A stretch of DNA of 64,000 bases, from positions 1 through 64,000 of the forward strand of contig JAAUSF010000001.1 in NCBI GenBank assembly GCA_012033255.1, in the 5' to 3' direction. Made by a program: the position numbers and the translations under genes. This DNA comes from Cyanobacteria bacterium RU_5_0. GTDB taxonomy: Bacteria > Cyanobacteriota > Cyanobacteriia > Elainellales > Elainellaceae. The notes beneath the pieces are model-generated. The model did no database searches. It worked only from the letters and a program-made list of their open reading frames with translations, and was not told the DNA's origin. This document shows, one piece after another, positions 33,068 through 35,411 of the stretch (position 1 is the stretch's first letter; each line of letters starts with the position of its first letter).

Positions 33068-34282
33068 GTGGCGAAATTAAGTGAGTGTGTTAGCGTGATA
33101 GCGACAAATTTTCAAATCCATCAGGGAGAACAATACCGGGGCGTGGAGGCGATTTTTCAGCTAGTCCTTAGCGAACTGAAGCAGTCCACTCGCGCATCTG
33201 AACAGAACTGTCGGGATGTTGCACATCGTTTAACGAGCGAAGTGACCCGCATTTGTTCAGAAAGCAAGCGTATTCAAGCTTCCGGAGAAGTAGAAACCTG
33301 GTCAACAACTCTGGCACGGCATCGACTGAAGCAGTGCTTGAAGTATTACCAGTTAGGGTCCCATCGCGGTCGAGTTGAACTACACAGCACCCTTAGTGCG
33401 GTAGTTTATCGCTACATCACCCCCCCACAAGTTCAATCAAGTTACCAAGCGCGGTTGACCCTAATTGAAGACTTCTTACAAGGGTTTTATATCGAATCGC
33501 TTAATGCCTTCCGTCGAGAAAATCAACTGCCTTCCACCTATCGTCCGCGTACTTTGTTGGAGCTTGCGGAGTACATGGCGTTTACTGAGCGATATGGCAA
33601 ACGTCGAATTCCGCTTCCGGGTCGTCGTAGCCAACAATTGATTATTCTCAGGGCACAAACTTTCTCGCAACAGCAGCCTCCTGAAACGATGGTGGACATG
33701 GAGCAAGCGGCTGAGGGGGCTTCTGGAGAAGCGGATAATCGTAGTAGTGTTCCAGTTCCCCAAGTTCGGGAACAAATGATGGCGCTAGAGCCAGAATTAC
33801 CGGAAGATACGCTGCGAAATGCTGTGATTACGGAGTTGATGAGCTATCTGGAAGAACGACAACAGCAAGACTGTGCCGATTATTTTGCGCTCCGGCTTCA
33901 AGATTTGCCTGCTAATGAAATTGAGGCAATTTTGGGGCTAACGGCACGGCAACGAGACTATTTGCAGCAACGCTTTAAGTACCACCTGATTCGGTTTGCG
34001 CTTTCCCACCACTGGGAACTCGTGCATCAATGGCTGGAGGCAGACTTAGAGCGAAACTTTGGTCTGACGCCGCAGCAGTGGCAACTGCTTCAAACTCGGA
34101 TTACAGTACAACAGCAGGAACTTTTGCGATTAAAGCAGAAAGGGATGGTGGATAGTGCGATCGCCCAAGCTCTTGGTAGTACTCAGACTCAAGTGCAAAA
34201 GCAATGGTCGAAACTGCTGGAGCAAGCGTGGGAAATTCGCAATAACCTAATTTCCGGAGCAGGCACATCTACTGATGAATAA
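33068..34282 (+). CDS. hetZ: HetZ-like DNA-binding regulator
   Basis: A 404-residue protein of the HetZ family. In Anabaena HetZ is a DNA-binding protein acting early in heterocyst differentiation; homologues also occur in filamentous strains without heterocysts. Length and helical composition fit, and the downstream patU3 homologue strengthens the call. The C-terminal part resembles sigma-like helix-turn-helix units (DLPANEIEAILGLTARQRDY and KQKGMVDSAIAQALGSTQTQ). The start is GTG 33068 after AGGTAGA. The end is unusual: the last 24 residues are repeated, in the same frame, directly after the TAA stop (34283-34375). Confidence 0.85.
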   Translation: MAKLSECVSVIATNFQIHQGEQYRGVEAIFQLVLSELKQSTRASEQNCRDVAHRLTSEVTRICSESKRIQASGEVETWSTTLARHRLKQCLKYYQLGSHRGRVELHSTLSAVVYRYITPPQVQSSYQARLTLIEDFLQGFYIESLNAFRRENQLPSTYRPRTLLELAEYMAFTERYGKRRIPLPGRRSQQLIILRAQTFSQQQPPETMVDMEQAAEGASGEADNRSSVPVPQVREQMMALEPELPEDTLRNAVITELMSYLEERQQQDCADYFALRLQDLPANEIEAILGLTARQRDYLQQRFKYHLIRFALSHHWELVHQWLEADLERNFGLTPQQWQLLQTRITVQQQELLRLKQKGMVDSAIAQALGSTQTQVQKQWSKLLEQAWEIRNNLISGAGTSTDE

Positions 34283-34375
34283 TTCACAAACCTAAAGTCA
34301 AAATTACTTGAAACGGCTTGCAAAATTCGCAACAATTTAATATCCGGAGCAGGGACATCTACCGATGAAGAATGA
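34283..34375 (+). pseudogene. Duplicated 3' end of hetZ, in frame after the stop
   Basis: After the hetZ TAA the same frame continues for 30 codons and ends SGAGTSTDEE before TGA. The last 25 codons match the hetZ C-terminus (SKLLEQAWEIR against SKLLETACKIR, then identical). In the 47 bp closest block (34233-34279 against 34323-34369) there are six differences, all synonymous. The patU3 ATG (34365) lies inside this copy, 9 bp after AGGGA. Confidence 0.85.
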
Positions 34376-35411
34376 CGCAGAAGCCATCAAGCAATTTTTG
34401 ACTTGGCTATTGCAAGCGCCCCCGACTGATTCAGCGCCATCAGGGGAAAACTCTAGTCATTTGACTAGTCCAGATGAGTCCGGGGTGAATTTGCAATTTT
34501 CTGATCTCGATCCTCTCGATTCGGAAGTGGGAGATGGATGCTCATCTCACCTCCCTGAGTCGAGTTCTACTCCTTTTAGGCAAGTTTCATTAGAATTCGG
34601 AGAAATACCTGCTGTGCAAGACCGTTTTCATACGTTGTTAAAGCGTCGGCTTCGCGCTGAAATCGAACGCAACCCACCCTTGTTTCCTTGGGAAACCAGA
34701 CTCTGTGACTACGATTCTGAATATTCAGATTTATCGAGTCCAGATTTAATTTCAACGAAACTGTGGGCAACCCAACTGCGAACCCTGAATCTACCTGTGC
34801 CGATGCCGGATAAGGTGTTAACGCGATTGTTTGATCAGTGTCGGACAGTGGTGCAATCTTCCCTTAGAGAGGGTGCAAAATTAGTGCAAGTTGTGGAGTC
34901 CTTGTTTCCTGGAGAATCCCAGAATCTGAATTATCTAGCGGGTCTTGTGTTGGCGGCTCCTGTGCGATCGCCATCGACCACGCCTAAAGTCAACCCAGAG
35001 ACATCTGGATTTCCAAATCACTATGATGTCGCAACAACGACTCAGCAAATGTTGCTCTCATTGTGGGCAGCACGGGAAATCTTAGAGACCATGACCCTGA
35101 AGCTATTCCCTAACCAATCGAAAGTTGAACGGCAATGGCTGACCGATCTGGGTTTATTGCGGTTAGAAGCAGAATATCAGCCTCAAACCCATCGACTGCG
35201 TGTTCAAGGACAACTCCCGCACCAAGGAAGCATTTGCCTTTGGGATGATGATGCCCATTCGTCGGCTCAGTGTTCCAATCCGGGTTGCCTCAGTGTGGAA
35301 CTGTTCAATGTAAAACCTAATAAAACTTACTCGTTGGAAATCCAATTTGAAGGAACCGATCAACCACCGATTGTGTTTGTGGTTTATCCAGTCACGGAGG
35401 AAGAAAGCTAG
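34365..35411 (+). CDS. patU3: PatU3-like protein
   Basis: A 348-residue protein matching the PatU3 partner of HetZ in composition and position; in Anabaena patU3 follows hetZ and influences heterocyst pattern, with the protein interacting with HetZ. The N-terminal 75 residues are acidic, Ser/Asp-rich and probably disordered (for example FSDLDPLDSEVGDG). The middle (LKRRLRAEIERNPPLFPWET) and the Leu-rich LLSLWAAREILETMTLKLFP look folded. The C-terminus has two Cys in CSNPGCLSVELF. No enzyme motif is seen. Its start and ribosome binding site lie inside a duplicated hetZ 3' end, suggesting coupled translation with hetZ in the ancestor. Confidence 0.8.
   Translation: MKNDAEAIKQFLTWLLQAPPTDSAPSGENSSHLTSPDESGVNLQFSDLDPLDSEVGDGCSSHLPESSSTPFRQVSLEFGEIPAVQDRFHTLLKRRLRAEIERNPPLFPWETRLCDYDSEYSDLSSPDLISTKLWATQLRTLNLPVPMPDKVLTRLFDQCRTVVQSSLREGAKLVQVVESLFPGESQNLNYLAGLVLAAPVRSPSTTPKVNPETSGFPNHYDVATTTQQMLLSLWAAREILETMTLKLFPNQSKVERQWLTDLGLLRLEAEYQPQTHRLRVQGQLPHQGSICLWDDDAHSSAQCSNPGCLSVELFNVKPNKTYSLEIQFEGTDQPPIVFVVYPVTEEES

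Follow-up and report, generated by a model that had tools for sequence, protein, structure and literature searches.

The hetZ-patU junction of Cyanobacteria bacterium RU_5_0 (contig JAAUSF010000001.1, positions 1 to 64,000; this stretch of 64,000 nucleotides is called the window here) repeats the 3' end of hetZ directly in front of patU. This duplicate is real and old, and its best interpretation is an overlap of two genes that has been resolved. Very probably, a duplication split a dual-purpose junction, with copy 1 keeping the HetZ tail and copy 2 the patU start region. By comparison with related sequences, we could establish that the junction was duplicated, that this event is old, in which direction the sites changed and that the second reading frame has decayed. 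The features concerned are:

33068..34282, forward strand: hetZ coding sequence, an open reading frame of 404 aa with a GTG start as listed and a TAA stop at 34280-34282
34365..35411, forward strand: coding sequence of patU (patU3 homologue), an open reading frame of 348 aa that aligns to the post-hetZ gene in nearly all relatives
34198..34283, forward strand: copy 1, which still encodes the HetZ C-terminus and stop and is changed at six synonymous sites
34288..34373, forward strand: copy 2, the patU leader and start region, with a 5' half decayed as HetZ protein and an ancestral 3' half
34253..34258, forward strand: TCCGGA of copy 1, in HetZ Ser-Gly codons
34343..34348, forward strand: TCCGGA of copy 2, outside any used HetZ frame and with the patU ATG 22 nt downstream (N16 between)
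34351..34355, forward strand: AGGGA, the probable patU Shine-Dalgarno sequence, judged from the sequence and duplex energies
34370..34372, forward strand: GAA in copy 2 at the site of the ancestral hetZ stop TAA/TAG, a derived T-to-G change

The hetZ product belongs to the HetZ family, as its residues 29-392 match the NCBIfam model NF037963.1 (heterocyst_HetZ) with 660 bits at a cut-off of 550. No Pfam or NCBIfam model matched the patU product, and its name is derived from the position after hetZ, from the literature and from similarity to the post-hetZ genes of relatives, including Nostocales. According to papers that refer to the original description (Zhang 2007, in PMC7377430 and PMC12288457), Anabaena sp. 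PCC 7120 has a hetZ-patU5-patU3 cluster with the same genes in the same order and on the same strand, whereas patU is one gene here and the junction is duplicated. The HetZ and PatU products interact in Anabaena (PMC7377430). The nearest named relatives of the window are Leptolyngbya-like filamentous cyanobacteria.

A repeat search aligned 34198-34283 with 34288-34373 at a spacing of 90, in frame and with 74% identity over 86 nt, which confirms the in-frame second hetZ 3' end that a sequence-only reading of the window had reported directly past the stop codon. The spacer resembles the 3' end of hetZ more than chance would allow, since the local alignment of the two scored 80 and the maximum among 1000 dinucleotide shuffles was 33. 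In the closest block (34233-34279 versus 34323-34369, 47 nt, 87% alike), the copies differ at six positions, all of which are synonymous (copy 1/copy 2: AAT/AAC, AAC/AAT, CTA/TTA, ATT/ATA, GGC/GGG, ACT/ACC). The 5' half of the repeat, however, is not kept as protein (QKQWSKLLEQAWEIRN versus TNLKSKLLETACKIRN), and the purely synonymous pattern claimed earlier thus holds for the last 47 nt only. Past the stop, the frame translates as FTNLKSKLLETACKIRNNLISGAGTSTDEE and remains open as far as the TGA at 34373-34375. The patU ATG at 34365 and the AGGGA at 34351-34355 both lie inside copy 2, as had been stated, and the gap from the hetZ stop to the patU start amounts to +82 nt.

The hetZ-patU junctions of 60 genomes of relatives and of 80 named loci were gathered. 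In most relatives, the hetZ stop and the patU ATG share an 8-nt overlap (ATGAATAR), and an alignment was made of 80 distinct junctions with this layout. From this distribution, the overlap, which had been suspected from the window's sequence, is the ancestral layout. The copies are arranged head to tail and outgroups are single-copy, which bears out the proposed tandem duplication. Two more genera of the family carry the same duplicate, represented by a CCP2 genome (G010, spacer 83) and by a single-contig genome (G002, spacer 82). In a tree of HetZ without its tail, these two sisters and the window genome (labelled G000 in the comparison) form one clade with moderate support (80/82). A duplicate found in three genera that form one group can be neither recent nor an assembly error; both options were ruled out on this ground and by the single-contig genome, and the earlier idea of a recent stop falls with them. 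In a second clade (G009, G018, G027), a decayed copy of the hetZ tail lies ahead of patU with spacers of 303, 138 and 139 nt. These longer duplicates may stem from a separate event; a single origin of all duplicates was neither shown nor rejected (p-AU 0.506). The loci L056/L144, L058 and L064-L071 depart from the 8-nt overlap in other ways: in several Leptolyngbya-like lineages the patU ATG lies 11-13 nt past the hetZ stop, and in L056 the 5' end of patU looks broken.

The polarity of the changes was determined with 27 single-copy family members as the reference. At all six synonymous sites, copy 2 has the commonest state of the family and copy 1 is derived (at the GGC/GGG site, the commonest state is tied with T). 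The changes thus arose in copy 1, the real HetZ coding sequence, where they are synonymous because selection on HetZ permits such changes. The stop codon leads to the reverse of the previously proposed GAA-to-TAA change in the first copy: its T (34280) is ancestral, being found in 27/27 single-copy members, whereas copy 2 has a derived G (34370). The second copies of both sisters have TAA at this position. The T-to-G change alters only codon 2 of patU, from AAT to AAG, and became possible only after the stop of copy 1 had become the hetZ stop in use.

As a HetZ reading frame, copy 2 has decayed. In the window, its 5' half is changed at -52, -44 and -43, sites that are invariant among the single-copy family members, and the HetZ-invariant Trp and Glu of AWEIRN are altered. 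The second copy of G002 contains an in-frame TGA, and that of G010 a frameshift followed by TGA after nine codons. The HetZ part has 18 columns with a conservation of 95% or more in single-copy junctions; of these, copy 1 keeps 18/18 in the window genome, 18/18 in G010 and 17/18 in G002, and copy 2 keeps 16/18, 12/18 and 14/18, respectively. The HetZ tails of copy 1 have also changed as protein in the sisters (SGSSKSADE in G010 and SGPNPQVDE in G002; SGAGASTDE-like in most relatives). In each of the three tandem genomes, Shine-Dalgarno pairing is stronger in copy 2 than in copy 1 (copy 1/copy 2: -5.9/-6.4 kcal/mol in the window genome, -4.9/-6.7 in G010 and -3.7/-7.5 in G002), with a small margin of 0.5 kcal/mol in the window.

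The simplest account of these data is the following course of events. In the ancestor, one stretch would have encoded the last HetZ residues and the stop and also held the patU start region, i.e. a Shine-Dalgarno sequence, the TCCGGA element and an ATG in an 8-nt overlap with the hetZ stop. Two copies would then have arisen by a tandem duplication of ~90 bp and divided these jobs between them. Copy 1 would have gone on evolving as HetZ coding sequence, with the synonymous changes seen in the window, and copy 2 as the patU leader, its 3' half held at the nucleotide level and its 5' half free to drift. Translational coupling by termination-reinitiation is predicted at distances of -8 to +10 nt and is almost lost above about 20-38 nt (PMC10666635). 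Most relatives, at -8 nt, lie within this range; the window, at +82 nt, lies outside it. With 82-83 nt now separating the hetZ stop from the patU start, the duplication has probably broken the coupling of the two genes, and patU would be initiated independently rather than by termination-reinitiation. As for the HetZ:PatU ratio, we only infer any change.

Three other accounts of the duplicate have to be weighed against this division of the junction. Gene conversion could keep the last 47 nt of both copies alike in the window genome, where this block is indeed more alike (87%) than the remainder of the repeat; moreover, copy 2 of the sisters has ATCCATGAA or a similar sequence, and copy 2 of the window is nearer to its own copy 1 there. 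However, six differences remain between the copies, copy 2 having the common ancestral state at these sites, and the copy-2 states of the window are also found in single-copy relatives, so we regard conversion as quite unlikely. If the duplicate instead came from a related hetZ-patU segment by recombination, so that part of the donor's hetZ end was left in front of patU, synonymous differences only would also be expected, both tails having been under HetZ selection in separate lineages. This very improbable scenario fits poorly with a unit that is a clean head-to-tail 90-bp repeat, with a spacer of 82-83 nt in all three genomes and with the ancestral family states of copy 2. Finally, the sequence-only reading had taken the open frame and the synonymous differences as signs that copy 2 extends HetZ under selection because ribosomes read, or until recently read, through TAA, which is extremely unlikely given the stops in that frame in both sister genera, the ancestral TAA in their second copies, the altered Trp and Glu and the placement of the synonymous changes in copy 1. 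Aligned junctions of close relatives with random, non-synonymous differences had been named in advance as evidence against that idea, and the sisters indeed show the same arrangement with second copies that are not protein-like. Their broken frames exclude a conserved HetZ extension for the clade, and not strictly for the window strain alone. With copy 1 as the hetZ end and copy 2 as the patU start signal, no readthrough is needed.

The part of copy 2 that stands out is TCCGGA. In the HetZ tail, the Ser-Gly codons read TCC in 81/81 and GGA in 80/81 hetZ genes, and synonymous conservation is higher at these two columns than anywhere else in the gene. The hexamer is intact (6/6) and at the same position in every copy 2 (six sequences). 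Where hetZ ends earlier, TCCGGA is retained 2 to about 100 nt past the stop. In L153, L195 and L197-L200 (family f13) as well as in L062, L080 and L098, hetZ ends with AWEIRN plus one residue and lacks the SG..DE tail; the tail is absent there, yet TCCGGA and the patU start stay, and the HetZ tail thus appears dispensable. A pattern search with an open sixth base returned A in 34/34 matches (the spacing being fixed by the pattern). A separate spaced-motif search across the family was too loose for use anywhere but at the hetZ-patU locus. A spacing of 16 to the patU ATG was found unforced in L062, L080, L098, L149 and L153. When spacings of 12-20 were allowed, 16 was obtained in four genomes, and one further match at 19 is probably unrelated. 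Genome-wide, TCCGGA-N16-ATG gave 37 matches, about the base-frequency expectation; the reversed control, which is not a fair one, gave 1.

We thus consider TCCGGA a nearly invariant element of the patU start that was exposed by the duplication and has a candidate role there. HetZ and PatU3 oppose each other in the control of heterocysts in Anabaena, and a HetZ site near the start of the antagonist's gene is an attractive idea. It is tentatively possible that HetZ or a partner controls patU through a cis element centred on TCCGGA, which is kept in several cyanobacterial families both where it encodes HetZ residues and where it does not, that the conservation of the C-terminal HetZ codons is a by-product of this element and that the duplication freed hetZ from it.

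A more specific alternative, which we judge unlikely, is that the junction hexamer is a DIF1 promoter element from which HetZ drives a transcript into patU. TCCGGA is the hexamer of HetZ-dependent DIF1 promoters (PMC7377430) and is present identically at 34253-34258 and 34343-34348; it is conserved at the DNA level, and internal start points in hetZ have been mentioned for patU5-patU3 in Anabaena. DIF1 (DIF+) promoters have TCCGGA at -35, a special -10 region and a start ~35 nt downstream (PMC6133370), which would fall inside patU here. Furthermore, no TAnnnT was found by reading either strand at the matching -10 position, 17-18 nt downstream of TCCGGA. The likeness to DIF1 promoters (PMC7377430, PMC6133370) extends to the hexamer and its link to HetZ, but here TCCGGA stands 22 nt before a start codon, and no DIF1-type -10 box was seen. 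The hetR loci of relatives (L164-L194) also speak against this alternative, as nearly all those sampled lack TCCGGA in the ~1.3 kb before hetR, and support from a DIF1 regulon was dropped for this reason. In L192, the hexamer lies at -310 of the hetR locus, roughly as described for Anabaena. HetZ residues 341-386 (about 34088-34225 in the window) gave a weak match below the cut-off to a sigma-70 ECF family (24 bits, E 2e-5), a match worth noting since TCCGGA is a -35 element.

In its ancestral and majority form, the hetZ-patU pair resembles known termination-reinitiation gene pairs (PMC10666635, PMC6728339) in its 8-nt overlap and unidirectional order, although coupling is judged here from distance; the window and its sisters differ in that the duplicated junction has removed the overlap. 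As in duplication-degeneration (subfunctionalization), the two copies retain different parts of what the ancestral sequence did, but the unit is a 90-bp gene junction and not a gene. A narrow literature search found no matching paper on a subfunctionalized gene junction. The overlap suggests that the production of HetZ and PatU is tied, and the duplicated junctions, where it has been undone, serve as natural experiments, so that the nucleotide signals of patU can be separated from the constraint of HetZ coding. They single out TCCGGA as the conserved element at the patU start, and the lasting interest of the duplication lies in having revealed it. Synonymous-only differences between repeat copies, on the other hand, need not mean that both are translated.

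Other signals were searched at the junction and in patU. A conserved RNA structure at the junction was rejected, as the consensus fold of 80 sequences was negligible (-0.8 kcal/mol), and an Rfam search of the junction gave no match. One match to a new sigma-70 promoter in the spacer, with 0.5 expected, is not informative. Within the 5' coding part of patU, the window (34437-34470) and about 20 family members contain CATCAGGG and, at most about 8 nt after it, a hairpin of 6-8 bp for which Rfam had no match. In the window, the hairpin reads CTAGTC ATTT GACTAG, and its arms covary among relatives (CCAGTC/GACTGG, CCAGCC/GGCTGG, CTAGCC/GGCTAG). The stem is present in 26 of the 34 sequences with CATCAGGG, compared to 21% in mononucleotide shuffles.
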